Of a DNA stretch of 64,000 nucleotides, positions 3,961-20,387 are shown piece after piece. The notes below the pieces were generated by a model. The model did no database searches. It was not told the origin of the DNA and worked only from the letters and a program-made list of their open reading frames with translations. The DNA comes from Thiosocius teredinicola. Lineage in GTDB: Bacteria > Pseudomonadota > Gammaproteobacteria > Chromatiales > Chromatiaceae. The position numbers and the translations under genes are program-made. The stretch is taken from contig NZ_CP019936.1 of NCBI RefSeq assembly GCF_002009425.1, positions 2,281,297-2,345,296 on the forward strand, written 5' to 3'. Within the stretch, counting starts at the first letter, position 1. Each line of letters starts with the position of its first letter.

Positions 3961-4919
3961 CTCGGCCGAGCAGCGAAACCCTGGCGAACATCTACTATGA
4001 AGCCTGCGTGATGGACGTCAAGGCATTGAAGCCTGGCAACGTCTCGCTGTCGTCGCCGGGTCATGGCATGCAGGGCGGTGATTTTCTGTTGAGCGCCGCC
4101 GTCAGCGCCGCCATCCTGGCGAAACCGGAATCAACGCTTGGCGAGCGCATTCTCAATGCAGTGGTCGCAACGCGCGAAGCGGTGGCCTGCAACACCAACC
4201 TAGGCATCGTGTTGTTGTGTGCGCCGCTGTTGCAGGCACGATTGCAGCATCCGGACAGCGATCTCTCGGCAGCCGTCGAGCAGATCATTGCGGACAGTAC
4301 CCAGGACGATTGCGCAGCGCTCTATCAAGCCATTCGCGTGGCATCGCCCGGTGGGCTCGGCGACGTCGATGCCTATGACGTTAACGATGACTCGCCGCCG
4401 GCAACGATCCTGCAAGCAATGCGCGCCGCCGCCGGACATGACGTGATAGCCGCCTTGTATGCCTCGGGTTTTCGCGCCCTGTTTGACGACTATGTCGATT
4501 ACCTGGCGCGCTCGCTGCGCAATCACAATGACCTTGAGCATGCGGTGACCGACCTGTTCCTCTACCTGCTCGCCAATACGCCGGATACCCATATCCGGCG
4601 AAAACAGGGCAGGCAGGCAGCACAGCGTGTATGCGAACTGGCCAAGCGTGCGCGCCGCCATTACGCCGAGGCACCGGATGGTGCTTCTGCATTGCATGTG
4701 CTTATCGATCTCGACAACCAGCTCAAAAGCGAAGGGCTGAACCCAGGAACCAGCGCCGACTTGTGTGTTGCGGCGCTGGTGATTTTCCGTCTGCAACAGC
4801 AGGTACAACCAGAAGCCGGGGCAACCCGGATTGAAGCGTGGGCACCAAAGCCGTCCGTCGCCTCGGTGACACGCCTATCGACACGCCACAATGACGAAGG
4901 AGAATTGAAATGGCAGTGA
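3957..4919 (+). CDS. CitG-like protein of the H4MPT cluster (Orf7 type)
   Basis: The 320-residue product resembles triphosphoribosyl-dephospho-CoA synthase (CitG/MdcB). It has an N-terminal [18 protein letters not shown] segment, the [14 protein letters not shown] stretch near residue 80 and [13 protein letters not shown] near 128. The family moves a phosphoribosyl group from ATP to a dephospho-cofactor; in H4MPT clusters the homologue is thought to serve cofactor biosynthesis, possibly by adding a ribosyl phosphate, which is inference. The start is GTG at 3957 inside a GTGA overlap with the previous stop. The frame is also open upstream to 3621, but that stretch lies inside the ATP-grasp gene. 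Confidence 0.82.
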
Positions 4920-5422
4920 TTACGCAAACCTTAGTAGGGGAGTCCTTGGTCGGTGACGGTAACGAAGTTGCCCACATCGACCTGATTATGGGGCCGCGCG
5001 GTTCGGCCGCCGAGACGGCGTTCTGCAACGGTCTGGTCAACAACAAAGATGGTTTCACATCGCTGTTGGCCGTGGTTGCACCGAACCTGCCTTGTAAGCC
5101 GCACACGATGATGTTCAACAAAGTGACCATCAAGGGTGCCAAGCAAGCGGTACAGATGTTTGGCCCGGCTCAGCGCGGTGTCGCCATGGCGGTCGCCGAT
5201 TGTCTGGAAGATGGCACCATCCCGAAAGATGAAGCCGACGACGTATTCATTTGCGTCGGTGTGTTCATCCACTGGGAAGCGGAAGACGACGCCAAGATCC
5301 AGGACTACAACTACGAGGCCACCAAGCAGTCGATCAAGCGCGCCGTTGCCGGCACGCCGACTCCGGACGAGGTCATTTCAGGCAAGAGCAGCAACGAGCA
5401 TCCGTTCGCAGCCCATTCCTGA
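4910..5422 (+). CDS. fae: Formaldehyde-activating enzyme
   Basis: Fae condenses free formaldehyde with tetrahydromethanopterin to give methylene-H4MPT, the entry reaction of this pathway and a major detoxification step in methylotrophs. The 170-residue length is typical. His22, the catalytic residue of the Methylorubrum enzyme, is present in [12 protein letters not shown], and the [16 protein letters not shown] and [14 protein letters not shown] blocks are intact. The ATG is preceded by a strong GAAGGAG and overlaps the end of the CitG-like gene by 10 bp. A perfect hairpin lies just after the stop (5431-5454). No thioredoxin, HPS or other fusion is attached. Confidence 0.97.
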
Positions 5423-5477: not shown

Positions 5478-6710
5478 ATGCAATGCCTCGAATGTGGTGC
5501 CGATTGTGATCGGCTGGACAACGAGCACCTGATCGCCTGCAGCGGATTGACACTGCAGGAGTATGCGATCCGTCACTGCCTGCCGTTGGACCTGGTCGTG
5601 CATGCCGATCAGATCAATCAGGCGGATGATGCTGAGGCATACGATGCGCCGCGCGCCTGTCCGGGTGAGGAAGCGCGCACCGCGTTGCAGGGTCTGCGAT
5701 GGGCCGGCCTGATCTGCAACGAAGGTGAGTTCTCGGAAGTCCGCGGAGAGATCAGGCGACTCGACATGCTGCTGTGGTTGCGCGAACAGTTGCACGACTA
5801 TGGTTTTCAATTCCGTCAGGACTACACCTACAGTCCCGATACCCATCGGGTCGTTGCGCGCAACTGCGTGCGGGTGCCGACGGCGAACCTGAAAGGATCA
5901 CGTCATTGGGCGGTGCCCGAGCCTCCGCCTGATTTTCTCGATTGCCTGGCGATCTATTTTGCGCATCAGGCTGAATGGCACAACGGTTACCTGTTTATGC
6001 CGTTCGACAATGTCGAGCATGCCCAGCTGGTTGCTGAAACCCTGTTGCGCGAGCACGGCATTGCAAGCCATAGCCTGGACGCGGTGATGGCCGGTGGCCG
6101 GCTGCTGCGCAGCAAACAGCCGCGGGATGCCGATGCCTTGTTGGCGTTGCTTGCGTCGCGCTTGCAAGAGATTCCGTCGGCGTGGGAGCGATTCCATCAA
6201 ACCACGCCGGTCACCAGTGTGAGCAAGGAACTGGTTTTCGATGCCGCACATTTCATTATCGATCATCCGGCCAAGTGTTCCAATCTGCACGGCGGACGTT
6301 ATGTCCTGCATGTCGAGGTGCGCGACCGTATCGATCCGGTCACCGGCTGTGTCGTTGACTATGGCTACCTTAAGCGCGTCGTCAACCAACAGGTCGTCGA
6401 TCGTTTTGATCATCACAATCTGAACTATGCTGCGCCCGAACTCGCCTGGCGTTCGAGTACCGAGATGCTGTGCGTACATATCTGGGAGTGTCTGATCGAT
6501 TATCTCCCCGGTCTGGCGTCGTTGCGTCTGTATGAGACGACCCAGTCGTGGTGCGATTACACGGGGCCGACTTTGGAAGCCTGCATGGCGCAGGGGTCCG
6601 ATCCCGTCCTACATCCGTTCGACCGCATCGATCCGCATGACGGTCGAAGACGAGGCCTGATAGCCGGAGGACCGGCCTTGCGGGCAGTGGCCGGCAATGA
6701 GGTCAGGTGA
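5478..6710 (+). CDS. 6-pyruvoyl-tetrahydropterin-synthase-like protein fused to a zinc-finger and degenerate LAGLIDADG-like region
   Basis: The 410-residue protein is far longer than a PTPS/QueD enzyme (about 120-165). Residues 1-40 look like a small zinc-finger module (C3, C6, H17, C21, then GLTLQEYA). Residues 70-240 resemble a LAGLIDADG endonuclease: WAGLICNEGEF at 75-85 keeps the shape and acidic residue of the motif, while a second half (LAIYFAHQA, then EIPSAWERF) has lost its acid. Residues 252-363 are the PTPS domain with AAH (H258), C267, LHGGRY (271-275), DHHNLNY (311-317) and E353. The usual third zinc ligand of HGH is Gly273. It may make a pterin precursor of H4MPT. The ATG follows a strong GGAGG. 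Confidence 0.75.
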   Translation: MQCLECGADCDRLDNEHLIACSGLTLQEYAIRHCLPLDLVVHADQINQADDAEAYDAPRACPGEEARTALQGLRWAGLICNEGEFSEVRGEIRRLDMLLWLREQLHDYGFQFRQDYTYSPDTHRVVARNCVRVPTANLKGSRHWAVPEPPPDFLDCLAIYFAHQAEWHNGYLFMPFDNVEHAQLVAETLLREHGIASHSLDAVMAGGRLLRSKQPRDADALLALLASRLQEIPSAWERFHQTTPVTSVSKELVFDAAHFIIDHPAKCSNLHGGRYVLHVEVRDRIDPVTGCVVDYGYLKRVVNQQVVDRFDHHNLNYAAPELAWRSSTEMLCVHIWECLIDYLPGLASLRLYETTQSWCDYTGPTLEACMAQGSDPVLHPFDRIDPHDGRRRGLIAGGPALRAVAGNEVR

Positions 6711-8394: not shown

Positions 8395-9439
8395 TCCGAA
8401 CGTCGTTGGATGGGATATCGGCGGCGCCCACCTCAAGCTCGCCTGCTTCACTGCAGACGGCATGTTGTGCAAGGTCATCGAAAAGCCGACACCGATCTGG
8501 CAGGGGCTCGATACCCTGCAACGTGCGATCGACGACATCGAACAACAGGTGTCGCTGAAGGGCTGCACGCATTACCTGACGATGACGGCCGAGCTGGCCG
8601 ACCTGTTCGACGACCGGGCACAGGGCGTCGTCGAGATTGTCGACCTGGTGCGGCAGCGGTTTCCCGGAGCCTTGATTCGGGTCTTCGCCGGGCAGCAGGG
8701 GTTTGTTGATGCGCGCGATGTGGGCGGGCAGGTGGTCGCAATCGCATCGGCCAACTGGATGGCGACGGCCAAGTTTGTCGCAGCCTGTGTGCCGGATGCC
8801 TTGCTCGTCGATATCGGCAGTACAACGACCGATCTGGTGTTGTGCCGCCATGGTGACCTGGACTGCCGCGGCTATAGCGACAAAGCGCGTCTGGCCAGCG
8901 GCGAGCTGGTGTATTCGGGCGTGGTGCGCACACCGCTGATGGCCGTGGTAACCGAGATACCGTTCGCCGGCGATTGGCTGGCCACGGCCAATGAGCACTT
9001 CGCTACCTTGGCGGATGCCTATCGGATCATTGGCGCGCTGCCGCAGGATGTGGATCTGCACCCGACGGCAGACGGTCGCGACAAGAGCGTAAGCTCCAGC
9101 ATGCGTCGTCTGGCAAGGATGGTGGGTTGTGATCTGGCCGATGGCAGCACCGCGGCCTGGACCGAGGCAGCGCACTTTGTTGTTGAGCGCCACACCGACA
9201 GCCTGCTCAAGGCACTACGGCGTCAGCTCAGTCGCAACCCGCAAGCGGACTACCCGCTGGTGGGCGCCGGTGCCGGCCAGTTCCTGGTCGAGCGACTGGC
9301 CGGACTCACCGGACGCGCGTACATTCCGATTCAGGATCTGCCGGGTTTGGACCCGTCGGATGACAAGATCTCAGTCTGCGCGCCGGCGGTTGCGGTCGGC
9401 AAACTCGGCATGATGGAGCCCATGGCATGTGCCTGCTGA
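8384..9439 (+). CDS. mfnF: MfnF-like methanofuran synthase (hydantoinase/oxoprolinase-type ASKHA protein)
   Basis: This 351-residue protein belongs to the H4MPT-linked C1 family now linked to MfnF, which couples the aminomethylfuran unit to glutamyl-tyramine. Its N-terminus reads VVGWDIGGAHLKLA, an ATPase phosphate-binding loop. LLVDIGSTTTDLVLC near residue 143 is the second phosphate motif, and a third glycine-rich motif, PLVGAGAGQFLVERLAGL, lies near 287. The start is GTG at 8384 inside the end of mfnD, and the stop lies inside pabB, so the four-gene operon is translated with overlaps throughout. Confidence 0.85.
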   Translation: MSPDPNVVGWDIGGAHLKLACFTADGMLCKVIEKPTPIWQGLDTLQRAIDDIEQQVSLKGCTHYLTMTAELADLFDDRAQGVVEIVDLVRQRFPGALIRVFAGQQGFVDARDVGGQVVAIASANWMATAKFVAACVPDALLVDIGSTTTDLVLCRHGDLDCRGYSDKARLASGELVYSGVVRTPLMAVVTEIPFAGDWLATANEHFATLADAYRIIGALPQDVDLHPTADGRDKSVSSSMRRLARMVGCDLADGSTAAWTEAAHFVVERHTDSLLKALRRQLSRNPQADYPLVGAGAGQFLVERLAGLTGRAYIPIQDLPGLDPSDDKISVCAPAVAVGKLGMMEPMACAC

Positions 9440-10812
9440 CACAGCTTCCTTACCATCGCGACAGCGCACGCCTGTTCGCTGCGATCGCCGATCACCCGTG
9501 GGCGGTGTTTCTCGACAGCAGCCATCCGATGACCCAGTCGGGACGCTACGACATTCTCGCAGCCGATCCGTACATAACCTTGGCGACCTTCGGTGATGTC
9601 ACACACATCGAATCGGCAGACGGCATCAGCGAGCGTCGCGACGATCCGTTCGCCCTGGTGCGCGAGGTGCTGGGCGACACGGTAAGCAACGATACCGGTT
9701 TGCCGTTTTGTGGCGGTGCCATCGGCTGGTTCGGCTACGATCTGGGGCGTCGTGTCGAGCGATTGCCGGCGCTGGCCGCAGATGTCGAACAGCTACCGGA
9801 GATGGCGATCGGTATCTACGATTGGGCTGTGGTTGTCGATCACCGTCGCGCGCAAAGCTGGCTGGTCGGACAGGGAAGGGACCCTGCCACCCGGCGCAAC
9901 TGGTGGTCGTTGTTGCAACGCTTTCGGCGTCCCGCATCGCCTGCCAATACCACGCCTTTCCGCATCACAGGGCCGGTACGCTCGAACATGGATCGCGCGG
10001 CCTACGGCAAGGCGTTTGAACACATCAAACAATACATACGCGACGGAGACTGCTACCAGGTCAACTTCGCCCAGCGCTTTGCCGCGCCGGCCCAGGGCGA
10101 CGGCTGGCATGCCTATGAACAGCTTCGCCGACTGAATCCGGCGCCGTTTGCGGCGTTCGTCAACTCGCCCTATGGGCAGGTACTCAGCTCGTCGCCGGAA
10201 CGCCTGCTGCGCCTGCATGGCGACACCGTCGAGACCCGGCCGATCAAGGGTACGCGCGCACGCGGCGACACCCCCGAGGGCGATTCGGCGCTGGCACAGG
10301 AACTGGCGAACAGCACCAAGGATCAGGCCGAGAACCTGATGATCGTCGACCTGCTGCGCAACGACATCGGTCGCGTATGCGAACCGGGAACCGTCAAGGT
10401 GCCGCAGCTGTTCAAGGTCGAGAGCTATGCGACGGTGCATCACCTGGTCAGTACGATTACGGGCAGGCTGGCGCAGGGCGAAGACGCAATGTCGTTGTTG
10501 CGTGCCTGTTTTCCGGGCGGCTCGATCACCGGCGCACCGAAGATCCGCGCGATGGAGATCATCGAAGAGCTGGAACCGAACCGGCGTGGTCTCTATTGCG
10601 GCTCTATCGCCTACATCGGCTTCGATGGCGCGATGGATGCCAACATCACCATCCGGACCCTGGTCTACAATCAGGGCCTGATCCGCTGTTGGGCCGGCGG
10701 CGGCATCGTGCATGATTCCGATGTCGATGCCGAGTACCAGGAAACCTTCGACAAGGCGGCGGCCATGCTACGTCTGTTGCAGAGCGAACGATTTGCCGAT
10801 GTGGGTGGTTAA
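9427..10812 (+). CDS. pabB: Aminodeoxychorismate synthase component I
   Basis: PabB converts chorismate to 4-amino-4-deoxychorismate with ammonia from PabA, on the way to p-aminobenzoate. The 461-residue length is normal for a stand-alone component I. The C-terminal chorismate-binding domain has RPIKGTRARG (the Lys marks PabB rather than TrpE), IVDLLRNDIGRVCEPGTV and FPGGSITGAPKIRAMEIIEE. p-Aminobenzoate feeds folate and is also the precursor joined to PRPP in H4MPT synthesis, which explains its place between mfnF and mfnE. No PabA or PabC domain is fused. It overlaps mfnF by 13 bp and mfnE by 14 bp. Confidence 0.93.
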   Translation: MCLLTQLPYHRDSARLFAAIADHPWAVFLDSSHPMTQSGRYDILAADPYITLATFGDVTHIESADGISERRDDPFALVREVLGDTVSNDTGLPFCGGAIGWFGYDLGRRVERLPALAADVEQLPEMAIGIYDWAVVVDHRRAQSWLVGQGRDPATRRNWWSLLQRFRRPASPANTTPFRITGPVRSNMDRAAYGKAFEHIKQYIRDGDCYQVNFAQRFAAPAQGDGWHAYEQLRRLNPAPFAAFVNSPYGQVLSSSPERLLRLHGDTVETRPIKGTRARGDTPEGDSALAQELANSTKDQAENLMIVDLLRNDIGRVCEPGTVKVPQLFKVESYATVHHLVSTITGRLAQGEDAMSLLRACFPGGSITGAPKIRAMEIIEELEPNRRGLYCGSIAYIGFDGAMDANITIRTLVYNQGLIRCWAGGGIVHDSDVDAEYQETFDKAAAMLRLLQSERFADVGG

Positions 10813-15937: not shown

Positions 15938-17332
15938 TCATTTCGAGGGATTCGTCTTCTTGGTCGATGCGGCCTCGGTGTATTGCGTCATGTCCTCGCT
16001 CTGCGGCGGCGTCGCCGCGCCCCACGTGAGAGGGTTGTCCTGCGTGTAGCGTTTGCCCAGTTGCAGCGCGATCTGCGCCCGGGCGAGTTCCACGCCGAGG
16101 TAGAAGGCGTGGCCCGCATCGTCGTCGACGCCGAGCTGCGGATAGGCATCGAACGGGTCGGCCACGACCTGCTTCATCTCGCGATTATAGATATGCACCC
16201 CGTCATCATTGACCTGGATACGAAAGTTGCGGTCCTTGACCGCGGCTGCCGCTTCGTCGATCTCGGCGGTCGAATAGGGAAAAGGTTTGCGCTCGTGCAG
16301 CCCGGTCAGGCCGGGGTGCAAACGTTTGGGCAGGGTCTGTTCCTCGCGCGCGCGAAACATCACGCGTCTTGCCAGGTCGGCTTCGCGCACGGCTGAGCGG
16401 CAATGCGGGCTGACTTCGGTGGTCAGCACTGCCTTGGCATGCAGTTCTGAAATGATGCCGAACAGCAGCGCATTGATGCCGCAGGTATCCGCCTCGGTGA
16501 GCTCGGTCAGATTGCCGACCCCCATCATGATCTCGGCCGTCGGCATGCGCTTTCGGGTCTCGTGGTAACGGACGATCGCCTCGGTGAAACCGAAATGGAT
16601 CGGGTCGAGGATCGGGTCGACCAGGCAGGCCCGCCCGTCGGCACGCAGTTGCTCCCACGCGCGTTGCATGCTGTCCAGATCGCCGGGAACCGCCGGGATA
16701 ATGATCGGCACCGAAGGCACCTGGCCGGCGATCCACAGATTGTGTTCATTGAGACTGAGCAGGTAGTCGGCGCCGGCCTTGCCGCCGGCAAGCAGTTCGT
16801 CTTCCTGCATCGAGTCGACGCTGACCTTGAACCCCTCGGCCTTCAGGCATCGCACACTGTCGGCCAGATGCGCGAAGGGTTCGCCGGGCAGGCAGCCGAG
16901 GTCGATGACATCGGCGCCGTCGTCGCGGAACCGCTGAGCACGCGCCACGATGGCGTCGATCGACATCTGCGGCGCGTCGACGATCTCGGCGAAGATCAGC
17001 ACATCGTGTTGGCTGAGATCGACGGGCTTGCCCGAATGACCCAGCCATTCGGGCAGGTCGCGCAGTTCTTCCGGTCCGCGCTCAAAGGTCACGCCGAAGG
17101 TTTGCGAGAGGTCGTCCAGATCGCCGCGGCAACGCCCCGGGATGATCACACGGTCGGCAGTGCCCGCATCTTCGAGGCGGCGTTTGATCATGTCGCCGGT
17201 CATCAGCGCGGCTACCTTGAGGCCGAGTTCGCGCACCTCCCAGGTGAAGTCGACGGACTCCATATCCTGCAACACGCGGCGTAGCGATGGGCCGGCGAGG
17301 GTGCCGGTCAGAAAGAGGAGATGTTCCGACAC
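15938..17332 (-). CDS. Dihydropteroate-synthase-related protein of the H4MPT cluster
   Basis: This 464-residue protein has an N-terminal region unique to the H4MPT-linked group and a central TIM barrel resembling dihydropteroate synthase: LIFAEIVDAPQM near residue 132, DDGADVIDLGCLPGEPF near 160, KVSVDSMQ near 190 and DPIHFGFTEA near 265. True DHPS joins pABA to a pterin; H4MPT synthesis instead uses a pABA-riboside, so this protein may act on that branch, which is unproven. I chose the GTG at 17332 because the first strand (HLLFLTGTLAGPSLRRVL) starts there; it overlaps the flavoprotein gene by 25 bp. Upstream open frame to 17800 is the opposite reading of that gene. Confidence 0.78.
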   Translation of the reverse strand: MSEHLLFLTGTLAGPSLRRVLQDMESVDFTWEVRELGLKVAALMTGDMIKRRLEDAGTADRVIIPGRCRGDLDDLSQTFGVTFERGPEELRDLPEWLGHSGKPVDLSQHDVLIFAEIVDAPQMSIDAIVARAQRFRDDGADVIDLGCLPGEPFAHLADSVRCLKAEGFKVSVDSMQEDELLAGGKAGADYLLSLNEHNLWIAGQVPSVPIIIPAVPGDLDSMQRAWEQLRADGRACLVDPILDPIHFGFTEAIVRYHETRKRMPTAEIMMGVGNLTELTEADTCGINALLFGIISELHAKAVLTTEVSPHCRSAVREADLARRVMFRAREEQTLPKRLHPGLTGLHERKPFPYSTAEIDEAAAAVKDRNFRIQVNDDGVHIYNREMKQVVADPFDAYPQLGVDDDAGHAFYLGVELARAQIALQLGKRYTQDNPLTWGAATPPQSEDMTQYTEAASTKKTNPSK

Positions 17333-17859
17333 GGTTCGCTGATAGACAACGCCGTCCGCAGTTCGTCCAGGCTCGTCACCACGTTGGTGTATTCGAATTC
17401 CTTGAGGCGTTCGGTGTTCTGCAAATCGATGGAGCGCGGATAAACCTTGACCGTACCGCTCGGTGCCTCGGTTTCCATCGCCGGCGCGACATCGCAGGCG
17501 AACACGATGCTCGGTACCCGGCACTTGCCGGCCTGGGCGTACACATTGGTCACCAGCGTATCGGAGATGCCGAACACCATCTTGGCGACACTGTTCGATG
17601 TGGCGGGCGCCACGACCAGCAGATCGTAGACGCCTTTGTAGAACAGCCCGACGGGCGGCGCGCTGGCCGTGCTGTCGCGAAAGATACGAAAGCGGGTCTT
17701 GAGGTCCTTGAACGGATGGCCGTAGGCATGCAGCACCTCGGCGGCGGCTTCGCTCAGGAACAGGTCGAGATTCGGTAATGATTCGGCGAGCGCGAGGCAC
17801 TCTTTCAAATAGTGCCCCGAGCCGGTGATCGCCCAGGCGATGCGGCCCGACTCAGTCAT
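17308..17859 (-). CDS. DmrB-like flavoprotein (probable dihydromethanopterin reductase)
   Basis: The 183-residue product is a flavodoxin-like FMN protein of the archaeoflavoprotein/DmrB group: RIAWAITGSGHYLKECL at the N-terminus, LLVVAPATSNSVAKMVFG near residue 80, and VFACDVAPAMETEAPSG near 118. DmrB of Methanosarcina reduces dihydromethanopterin to H4MPT; bacteria use DmrA or DmrB-like enzymes for the last step of H4MPT synthesis, and no DmrA is seen here. The ATG at 17859 overlaps the PTPS stop by 8 bp. It might instead reduce a different pterin, so I leave the symbol empty. Confidence 0.75.
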   Translation of the reverse strand: MTESGRIAWAITGSGHYLKECLALAESLPNLDLFLSEAAAEVLHAYGHPFKDLKTRFRIFRDSTASAPPVGLFYKGVYDLLVVAPATSNSVAKMVFGISDTLVTNVYAQAGKCRVPSIVFACDVAPAMETEAPSGTVKVYPRSIDLQNTERLKEFEYTNVVTSLDELRTALSISEPCRNISSF

Positions 17860-18349
17860 GGCCGATCTCGCGTGCGCAGATGCCCCATTGTTCGTCGGCT
17901 TCCTCCACCGCGACCTCGAGCGTCGTCAGGTTGCCGAGTGCATTTTCGCTGCGCAGCGTTTCCAGCAGGCGGTTGCTGATGTGCAGCGCCAGCATCTCTG
18001 CGGTCGTATTGGGGATGGGGAGCAGGATGCAGCTTTCACGGGCGAGGATGTAGCGCTTGTTGTAGCTGCGGATCTCGATCATGTCACCATCGACTTCGGA
18101 GACCTGGATATCGGCACCCTCGGTCGGCACCAGCACGCCGTCATGTAATTCACGGCAGATGCCGGCGGCCAGCCGGTTGAGCAGCACGAAGTCGATCACG
18201 AAGGCATCGGCGGTATTGCTGCCGCGCGCTTCGAGCTTTACGTGAAAGTTGTGACCGTGAATGTTTTCACAGGTCTGGTTGTACGTGATGAAGTGCGCGG
18301 CATTGAAATGCAGCTCGCCCGGACTCACGCGCACAGCGAAACGACTCAT
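17852..18349 (-). CDS. 6-pyruvoyl-tetrahydropterin synthase family protein (canonical zinc site)
   Basis: The 165-residue protein has all three zinc ligands (H19 in NAAHF, H31 and H33 in IHGHNFH) and the candidate catalytic Cys27, plus VIDFVLLNRL, LHDGVLVP and the acidic AVEEADEQWG. An insertion of about 35 residues rich in IEIRSYNKRY-type segments follows the second helix, so it is not a plain QueD. In H4MPT clusters PTPS homologues may process the dihydroneopterin intermediate. It is the first gene of the reverse operon, 26 bp after the start site expected from the upstream sigma-54-type promoter match. No queuosine genes are close by. Confidence 0.82.
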   Translation of the reverse strand: MSRFAVRVSPGELHFNAAHFITYNQTCENIHGHNFHVKLEARGSNTADAFVIDFVLLNRLAAGICRELHDGVLVPTEGADIQVSEVDGDMIEIRSYNKRYILARESCILLPIPNTTAEMLALHISNRLLETLRSENALGNLTTLEVAVEEADEQWGICAREIGHD

Positions 18350-18440: not shown

Positions 18441-20387
18441 TTAACGCGGCGATCGGATATCGAAGCGTTTCATCTTGCGGTACAGGGTGTTGCGGCTGAT
18501 ACGCAGTTTCGACGCAACGCGTGTCACGTTCCAGTGAGCGGCTTCCAGCTCGCGCAAAATCGCATCGCGTTCGGCGATATCGAGCGGATTCGATGGTCGC
18601 AGTTGCGGTGCGCCATCCTCGATGTCGGCGTTCTGGAAGATCTCGTCCGGCAGGTCGTCTACCCGGATGCAGTTGTCGTCGCATAGCCCGATCAGCGTAC
18701 GCAGGATATTGCGCAGTTGGCGGATGTTGCCGGGCCACTCGAACTGATCGAGCAGGGCGAGTGCCGATTCTTCAATCGTCACGTCATCGCCGCCGGCCTC
18801 CTTGCTGAGCAGGTGCTTGATCAGGGCCAGGCGGTCTTCGCGGTCGCGCAGCGGCGGCATCTGCAGGCTGATGCCGTTGAGACGGTAGTAGAGATCTTCG
18901 CGGAAGCTGCCTTCCTCGACGTGGCGCTTGAGGTCTTTATGGGTGGCGCTGATCAGGCGTATGTCGACCTTGATCGGTGTCTCGCCGCCCAGTGGGATCA
19001 CCTCGCGTTCCTCGAGCACGCGCAGCAGGCGGGCCTGCAGGTGCAACGGCATGTCGCCGATCTCGTCGAGAAACAGCGTGCCGGTGTGTGCCTGGACGAT
19101 CTTGCCACGCGAACCTTCGCGGCTTGCGCCGGTGAAGGCGCCGGGCCGGTAACCGAACAGCTCGCTCTCGATCAGCGATTCGGGCAGCGATGCACAGTTG
19201 ACGGCGACGAACGGTTTGTCGGCGCGGTCGCTGGAGCGGTGAACCGCGTTGGCGAACACGTCCTTGCCGGTGCCGGTTTCGCCGAGCAGGATGAACGGAA
19301 TATCGCGCTCGAGCAGCTTCTTAGCGCGCTCGACATTGCGCCGCATCCGGGCATCGCCGAACTCGAGCGAGTCGAGCGTGGTATTGGTCTCTTCCAATCC
19401 GCGCAGGACCGGACTGCGACGGGTTGTTCCCAGCCGCTGGTGGCCGTTCTCGCACTCACGGTGCGGCGCCTGGAAGCTGGCGAAGAAACGGCGGCCCTGC
19501 CGCGCATCGTGCAGCGGACGGTTGGAGCCGGCGTATTGATGGGCATTGTCGAGCGCCGCCTGGGCGCGGATGCTGAACAGGTCTTCGAGCGAGTGGTCGA
19601 GCACGCTCTTGACGTCCGGCTTGTCGAGCTGGAACAGGGCGCTGCGGTTGACCGCCTTGACCCGGCCGTTCTCGTCGAAGGCGATCGCGCCTTCACCCAG
19701 CGTGCTGATGAACTCGGGGCGGCTGTGGAAGCGCAGTATGTAATGATCGCGCATGGCGCACAGGAACAGACGGTTCTCGATGAGCTGGGCCGACATGTTG
19801 ACCAGCACCATGGTGTGCTCCTGGGCGCGGCGCGAATCGCTCGAAGCGTCCAGTACCGCAACCAGTTCGCCGGTTGGGTCGAAGATCGGCGCGGCCGAGC
19901 AGGTCAGCCCGGTGTGCTTGGTAAAGAAGTGCTCATCCTGGTGGATGATCAGCGGCCGCTTTTCGACCAGGCAGGTGCCCATGCCGTTGGTGCCCTGGGT
20001 GCGCTCCGACCAGATTGCGCCGGTCTGCAGCGCAGACTGCGATGCGGTGCCGGTGAACATCGGGTCGCCGACATAGTTCAGCACGACGCCATCCTGGTCG
20101 GTGAGCAAAATGGCATAGCCGGATCCGGCGACCTGCTGATAAAGATTGGACATCTCTGCGCGCGCGATCTGCAGCAGATTGCAATGATGTTCCTGGCGTT
20201 CCTTGAGTTCCCGTCGATCGACGAGGATCGGTTCCGGGCGGCGCTCAGGATCGAGTTCGTAGTCGTGAAAGCAGCGCTTCCAAGACTCGACGACCTGGGC
20301 GTTAATGGCTGTGGTTCCCGAACGGCTGCCGCGGATGGCATCGGTGACCAAGCCGGCGTGGGATTTGCCGGTGGTTAACTCCATCAT
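18441..20387 (-). CDS. Sigma-54-dependent transcriptional activator, AcoR type
   Basis: The 648-residue protein has the AcoR layout: an N-terminal GAF-type sensory region (about 80-210), a PAS-like segment (220-300), a central AAA+ domain and a Fis-type helix-turn-helix at the C-terminus (NVTRVASKLRISRNTLYRKM). Walker A (GETGTGKD), the sigma-54 contact loop GAFTGA and the Walker B region LFLDEIGDM are intact, so it should open sigma-54 promoters. It lies directly upstream of the ptps-fhc-mfn operon, where a -24/-12 site is visible, so C1-pathway control is a good guess. The effector is unknown. The ATG at 20387, or the adjacent one at 20384, follows AGAGGA. Confidence 0.9.
   Translation of the reverse strand: MMELTTGKSHAGLVTDAIRGSRSGTTAINAQVVESWKRCFHDYELDPERRPEPILVDRRELKERQEHHCNLLQIARAEMSNLYQQVAGSGYAILLTDQDGVVLNYVGDPMFTGTASQSALQTGAIWSERTQGTNGMGTCLVEKRPLIIHQDEHFFTKHTGLTCSAAPIFDPTGELVAVLDASSDSRRAQEHTMVLVNMSAQLIENRLFLCAMRDHYILRFHSRPEFISTLGEGAIAFDENGRVKAVNRSALFQLDKPDVKSVLDHSLEDLFSIRAQAALDNAHQYAGSNRPLHDARQGRRFFASFQAPHRECENGHQRLGTTRRSPVLRGLEETNTTLDSLEFGDARMRRNVERAKKLLERDIPFILLGETGTGKDVFANAVHRSSDRADKPFVAVNCASLPESLIESELFGYRPGAFTGASREGSRGKIVQAHTGTLFLDEIGDMPLHLQARLLRVLEEREVIPLGGETPIKVDIRLISATHKDLKRHVEEGSFREDLYYRLNGISLQMPPLRDREDRLALIKHLLSKEAGGDDVTIEESALALLDQFEWPGNIRQLRNILRTLIGLCDDNCIRVDDLPDEIFQNADIEDGAPQLRPSNPLDIAERDAILRELEAAHWNVTRVASKLRISRNTLYRKMKRFDIRSPR

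Follow-up and report, generated by a model that had tools for sequence, protein, structure and literature searches.

A Ros/MucR-type zinc finger and a LAGLIDADG-like domain fused to a PTPS domain beside fae and pabB in Gammaproteobacteria

The window analyzed here is a 64,000-nucleotide stretch of the Thiosocius teredinicola genome (NZ_CP019936.1, positions 2,281,297 to 2,345,296). Within its H4MPT/methanofuran gene block lies an ORF with an ATG start that is a real gene and encodes a 410-aa three-part fusion protein. The genes before it are, in order, an mtdB-like dehydrogenase, an ATP-grasp protein, mch, an MptN-like ATP-grasp protein, a CitG-like protein and fae, and those after it are a HisA-like gene on the opposite strand, an MfnD-like gene, one_C_unchar_1, pabB and an MfnE-like gene. 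The name mtdB and the assignment of the first ATP-grasp gene rest on context, as their NCBIfam matches are generic or absent. The features are listed in Table 1.

Table 1. Features of the fusion gene and of selected neighbors in the window
Feature	Position	Strand	Description
Three-part protein	5478..6710	+	Ros/MucR-type zinc finger, LAGLIDADG-like domain, PTPS domain
Zinc finger, residues 1-47	5478..5618	+	C3, C6, H17, C21, then L24-T25-x2-E28-Y29-x6-L35-P36 as in Ros/MucR
Middle domain, first half, residues 60-150	5655..5927	+	Holds WAGLICNEGEF at residues 75-85
Middle domain, second half, residues 146-241	5913..6200	+	Aligned to second LAGLIDADG_2 repeat; without motif-2 acids
PTPS domain, residues 248-363	6219..6566	+	PF01242, E 1e-28; PDB 2oba/4ntm relatives
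fae (formaldehyde-activating enzyme), next gene upstream of the fusion	4910..5422	+	TIGR03126, 250.6 bits versus cut-off 118.05
pabB (aminodeoxychorismate synthase I)	9427..10812	+	TIGR00553, 390.1 bits versus cut-off 328.4
Second, stand-alone PTPS	17852..18349	-	Motif CENIHGH, compatible with CxxxHGH and ExxHGH (PTPS-I and PTPS-III signatures)

Elsewhere in the window, the stand-alone PTPS gene adjoins an ORF (17308-17859, minus strand) that by eye resembles a flavoprotein gene, as well as a dihydropteroate synthase-like gene (TIGR00284). The mechanical start of the latter ORF (15938-17800, minus strand) was judged too far upstream because it overlaps ORF 17308-17859 in another frame, and the true start is probably near 17300. 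A sigma-54 activator at the edge of the H4MPT block (18441-20387, minus strand), whose best NCBIfam matches, DhaR and PrdR, are below cut-off, is a candidate regulator of the block. The same genome encodes a second, divergent Fae-like gene outside the window (G000:C1:2997040-2997534, 126.4 bits).

Forty-eight distinct proteins, including the window protein, carry the N-terminal domain followed by PTPS, and all are from the class of the window; the named carriers are Gammaproteobacteria. A filter-free check gave 48 distinct fusion ORFs plus a 96-aa ORF (L052), and a recount with a fixed 280-residue core again gave 48. For the N-terminal alignment set (48 sequences), HGG and an AH[FYW] start were required and duplicates were removed; L114 and L115 are absent from it because their cores duplicate L010 and L016. 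A contig search found 16 loci, with titles naming Gammaproteobacteria, Chromatiales, Thiodiazotropha, Thiohalocapsa or Lamprocystis. The genome of the window, a single 4.79-Mb contig, contains one match. In a 96-genome sample of its family, 7 genomes have full-length matches, and in 39 further genomes the match is confined to the PTPS part. The N-terminal profile matched 15/369 genomes of the class sample, 25/210 of the order sample and 10/12 of the family of 1.1-Mb genomes. Its two matches among the 398 genomes of the phylum sample were the window and L052, which was dismissed as a relative; it has no PTPS domain and is taken as a chance match. In the 1.1-Mb genomes (L251, L252), mtdB, mch, fae and the fusion are kept in order, and the fusion has no zinc finger. 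Species with the same genus label differ in the presence of the fusion (G061 and G063 versus G003/G095 and G007), suggesting that gain or loss was recent in places. No stand-alone viral relative of the N-terminus was found in IMG/VR or phage records, and LAGLIDADG_2 was not found in 150 Pseudomonadota genomes.

The assignment of the C-terminal part to PTPS in the original prediction was borne out by PF01242 with 100.1 bits, above the cut-off of 22.4. Among the 33 full-length proteins that were aligned, K250, H258, D262, H263, C267, H271, G273, D311, H312, E353 and T354 are invariant, so that the catalytic and pterin-binding residues C267, D311, H312, E353 and T354, as well as H258 and H271, are kept. 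In the alignment to 2oba, G273 occupies the place of the third His of the HGH motif of QueD and PTPS, which we take to be one of the three zinc-binding histidines. The motif is HGG in 48/48 fusions. In a set of 87 PTPS domains, which does not include the second PTPS of the window (not picked up by the profile) or a 348-aa tandem PTPS of the same genome, all 22 fusion domains have HGG and all 65 others HGH. Since the first half of that tandem protein lacks HGH, the fusion is not alone in having lost this motif. HGG was seen only in fusions, among the domains whose motif was read; several of the PTPS matches counted over the fusion genomes begin after it. The PTPS-I/QueD model scored 74.8 bits, below its cut-off of 89.25, the motif being CxxxHGG rather than CxxxHGH, and the PTPS-III motif ExxHGH is absent (S268 and G273 in the window protein; Glu at position 268 only in L046 and L047 among the 33). 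In a midpoint-rooted PTPS tree, built on few columns and with long branches flagged, a branch with support 98/99 separates the 22 fusion domains from the rest, and the pabB-linked pair G157/G393 parts first among them (98/96 for the other 20). The window's own genome encodes PTPS at three places: the fusion, the CENIHGH gene and the tandem ORF at 679396 (G000:C1:679396-679779, L055), the family relatives of which are tandem PTPS proteins. QueE- and QueC-like ORFs, named by eye, are among the same loci as tandem PTPS (L027, L032).

The class sample includes 15 genomes with the fusion. Fae is present in 12 of them, and in 11 of these the fae and fusion matches are at most 210 bases apart. In the twelfth (G150) fae is 35 kb away and the fusion adjoins pabB, the same pair being present at L013, which is probably from the same genome. 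The other three (G157, G393 and G221) gave no Fae match at E 0.001, and there too the fusion adjoins pabB, with an overlap of 4 bases in G221 (L250). At L003, L010, L014 and L015, pabB is further down the H4MPT block, and at L251 and L252 it was not found within the stretch read. The association with H4MPT originally proposed does not cover the three genomes in which the fusion is found beside pabB without a Fae match. A role exclusively in H4MPT was rejected on this ground and because the fusion is lacking from 37 of the 49 class-sample genomes with Fae. Another PTPS match is present in 26 of those 37, the best with 70.7 bits versus at least 210 for the fusions in the same search. Replacement of FolB was likewise rejected as a simple account, FolB being present in 27/30 fusion genomes (missing in G134, G150 and G302, the last 87% complete) and in 49/50 others. 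In 10/30 fusion genomes no PTPS other than the fusion was found. pABA and pterin are the two halves joined by dihydropteroate synthase. H4MPT genes have been described in lucinid symbionts (PMC6712303).

The N-terminal finger is of the Ros/MucR type, judging from its sequence, although its scores are below the Pfam threshold. Pfam ROS_MUCR matches residues 2-47 with E 0.012 and 16.1 bits when the whole protein is the query, and with E 0.0055 and 17.2 bits for residues 1-244, against a cut-off of 25.4. It matches 14/20 relatives at a limit of E 10 (best E 0.0011) and 9/22 of a more divergent set. A profile of the finger aligns to Ros (PDB 2jsp) from CLECG through L-T-x2-E-Y to L-P with E 0.18, weak but in register; the zinc ligands and the L-T/S-x2-E-Y-x6-L-P segment fall in register, with Cys rather than His as the last ligand. 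The predicted Cys/His module is present in the window protein, and its four metal ligands are found in 34/48 distinct proteins (32 by a strict pattern plus L010 and L022, in which the finger was seen), the finger being missing in 14/48. T25, E28 and P36 are conserved in 48/48, which suggests that the segment after the finger was kept longer than the finger itself.

The middle domain was originally described as a degenerate LAGLIDADG-like region. Residues 60-240 had no Pfam match, whether the query was the window protein, 20 or 22 relatives or the family consensus, and a check of residues 1-244 gave no Pfam LAGLIDADG match, only the subthreshold ROS_MUCR finger. The middle-domain consensus had no match in PHROGs, and searches of the PDB with middle-domain profiles and consensus gave, apart from Ros, a best E of at least 0.6 (0.71 for the consensus). 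PF09062, an intein endonuclease subdomain, appeared in 1/22 relatives with E 0.32 and was discarded as resembling chance matches in the same table. Profile-profile comparison with hhalign employed a LAGLIDADG_2 set of viral ORFs selected by the motif YWFMDDG (32 fragments, 26 of them distinct, taken from 39 loci), two ORFs of which were checked and are PF03161 (E 1.2e-27 and 2.4e-33), and a LAGLIDADG_1 set of 102 fragments, 94 distinct, among at least 120 stretches. Residues from about 178 to 235 fall on the second LAGLIDADG_2 repeat, with P 1.7e-4 and probability 49 for 26 proteins. With 48 proteins, the second half gave P 6.2e-5 and probability 65, and P 1.7e-5 and probability 79 against the second repeat alone. 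The whole middle domain is placed identically but more weakly than its second half (P 6.7e-4 and 2.7e-4). Against LAGLIDADG_1 the second half reached only P 0.007, the aligned part being the same helix-strand-strand-helix. Residues 60-150, the first half, match the register of LAGLIDADG_2 motif 1, but with P about 0.05 this is not significant alone, and another LAGLIDADG_2 alignment placed them elsewhere; an internal repeat between the two halves gave no signal. The P-values of 6.2e-5 and 1.7e-5 apply to residues 146-240 only.

Several controls addressed the placement on the second repeat. Among 128 family alignments from the fetched loci, one of which is the fusion family and 127 decoys, several of them antisense ORFs, LAGLIDADG_2 ranked first with 28.0, the next scoring 19.8. 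In the reverse search from LAGLIDADG_2, the fusion family was second by score only to LAGLIDADG_2 itself (28.5, versus 25.3 for LAGLIDADG_1 and 24.5 for a decoy), whereas by P-value LAGLIDADG_1 was ahead (8e-4 versus 0.0013). LAGLIDADG_1 and LAGLIDADG_2 are known relatives, and compared with each other they scored 27.5 with probability 24. Two subsets of relatives, one of the 10 small-genome sequences (P 2.9e-4) and one of the remaining 38 (P 1.4e-4), aligned to the same place. So did 12/12 halves drawn at random from the LAGLIDADG_2 set, although these have some duplicate rows in common. The observed score was reached by 0/300 column shuffles and, with shuffling in blocks of six, by 1/300 for the second half and 0/300 for the whole domain, and reversed profiles gave no match. 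Further blocks-of-six shuffles reached it in 0/100 against the second repeat and in 1/100 and 2/100 against the whole LAGLIDADG_2 domain; that run contained some unexplained scores above 100 (largest 141.87), which were not seen in a serial repeat of one comparison (0/150 with blocks of 6, 1/150 with blocks of 12). We read these comparisons together as pointing to a likely descent of the middle domain from a LAGLIDADG endonuclease, though short of proof.

All three motifs named in the original prediction, WAGLICNEGEF, LAIYFAHQA and EIPSAWERF, occur in the window protein, but the first, which had been read as nearly a LAGLIDADG core, does not hold as one: relatives have WAGQLITHEPF, MARAMVQQGEF, DLGLLESNEKE and others in the same columns, and it lies in the weaker half. 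The last Asp of the LAGLIDADG motif is the catalytic acid. In the nine-residue register of motif 1, residue 82, the last acid position, is acidic in 30/48 and residue 80, the first, in 9/48. At motif 2, none of the 48 has an acid at residue 162 or 164, a reading that depends on the register, since nearby residue 166 is acidic in 37/48. The second half, which had been called inactive, is the better supported part, and since the motif-2 acids are absent in 48/48, cutting is unlikely and the middle domain is probably unable to cut.

The explanation we favor, tentatively and somewhat short of even confidence, is a PTPS-family enzyme of the pterin branch of folate/H4MPT synthesis joined to a domesticated, nuclease-dead LAGLIDADG module. 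The pterin step is suggested by the pairing with pabB, by the pairing with fae in H4MPT operons and by the unchanged pterin and catalytic residues, and retention of the fusion alongside the H4MPT block mtdB-mch-fae in genomes of 1.1 Mb also favors this explanation, as do the single clade of its PTPS domains and the 10/30 fusion genomes in which it is the sole PTPS found. The enzyme would act together with PabB, on the pABA side, in making folate-type cofactors and, in genomes that have the H4MPT pathway, with that pathway too. Loss of the third zinc histidine would require a substitute ligand: H258 and H271 would probably hold the metal together with a further residue, for which invariant D262 and H263 are candidates. 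Because the canonical ligand is lost, enzyme activity may itself be lost or changed, and with FolB in 27/30 fusion genomes no gap in folate synthesis forces an enzymatic interpretation. The N-terminus, a Ros/MucR-type finger with a LAGLIDADG-type module probably derived from a homing endonuclease, would most likely serve assembly or nucleic-acid contact rather than cutting. The suggestion that a domesticated endonuclease may have become a pterin enzyme or scaffold is compatible with this.

The ancestry of the middle domain itself can be disputed. It is somewhat unlikely, in our estimate, that it is an unrelated alpha/beta domain, an ordinary PTPS accessory domain that matches LAGLIDADG_2 by chance or through similar secondary structure; the lack of Pfam or PHROGs matches even for the consensus, the non-significant first half and the shuffles that occasionally reach the observed score would fit such a domain, but it does not readily account for the identical placement from two subsets of relatives and all LAGLIDADG_2 half-sets (with their shared duplicate rows), the clear gap to other families or the failure of reversed profiles.

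Ros/MucR proteins are DNA-binding regulators. As WhiA too binds DNA, the main functional rival is a WhiA-like one-component regulator, in which the finger and the LAGLIDADG-like module would bind DNA and the altered PTPS domain would sense a pterin and control the pabB or H4MPT operon. Loss of the zinc ligand while pterin residues are kept, and the adjacency to pabB or fae, are consistent with a regulator, but a catalytic Cys, Asp and His invariant in 33/33 are not expected of a pure sensor and the finger is missing in 14/48, and we regard it as unlikely. A reading that combines the two functions, which we hold to be decidedly unlikely, is that a pterin enzyme captured a homing endonuclease with a Ros-type finger and turned it into a nuclease-dead part that binds nucleic acid. 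The product would handle a pterin at a two-histidine metal site and also bind the DNA or RNA of the pabB/H4MPT operon to which it belongs; if true, one protein would combine a metabolic enzyme with a regulator that responds to the cofactor. Finally, the fusion could be the QueD (PTPS-I, queuosine) of these genomes with an N-terminal extension, as might be suggested by the Cys at the PTPS-I place (CxxxHG), the QueD-model score and the genomes in which it is the sole PTPS found. That score is below the QueD cut-off, however, HGG replaces HGH throughout, the neighbors read are fae and pabB, and the window's own genome has two other PTPS genes, so we give this possibility little credence.

Under the favored explanation, a pterin-branch enzyme with a nuclease-dead N-terminal module, the question is whether the fusion serves Gammaproteobacteria, including sulfur symbionts, as an additional route to the pterin moiety of folate and H4MPT, and the pabB and fae neighborhoods make its role testable. 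We know of no domesticated LAGLIDADG protein fused to a metabolic enzyme, and among the papers listed by literature searches none described the fusion. Nor do the accessible parts of PMC5041015, PMC6712303, PMC3781837 or PMC5020050 describe it. Three PTPS signature motifs, including PTPS-III ExxHGH, are given in the accessible part of PMC5041015, which also names further subfamilies; HGG sets apart a PTPS group outside all three, and general PTPS models could therefore mislabel the fusion.

Among known systems, the finger shares with Ros/MucR (PF05443) the CLECG start, the H-L and the L-T-x2-E-Y-x6-L-P in the Ros register, but differs in a last His replaced by Cys, a loop one residue longer, a score below the Pfam cut-off and absence from 14/48 proteins. 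The second half of the middle domain aligns to the second repeat of LAGLIDADG_2 (PF03161) up to its IPS end, but unlike LAGLIDADG_2 it has no motif-2 acids, no conserved motif 1 and no Pfam match. With the COG0720/PF01242 PTPS proteins (QueD, PTPS-II and PTPS-III) the fusion has in common the same domain over 116 residues and the kept catalytic Cys-Asp-His and pterin-binding Glu; unlike them it has Gly for the third zinc His, a 245-residue N-terminal extension and a separate clade (22 in the tree). Few domesticated LAGLIDADG proteins have been described, WhiA and HO among them, and in WhiA (DUF199), a DNA-binding regulator, PMC3781837 describes a LAGLIDADG endonuclease domain that lost its catalytic residues and was kept by bacteria together with a DNA-binding part. 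WhiA, likened here by this description, is thus a precedent for a bacterial LAGLIDADG domain without catalytic residues, which the absence of motif-2 acids fits; unlike the fusion, WhiA carries an HTH at its C-terminus and lacks an enzyme domain.
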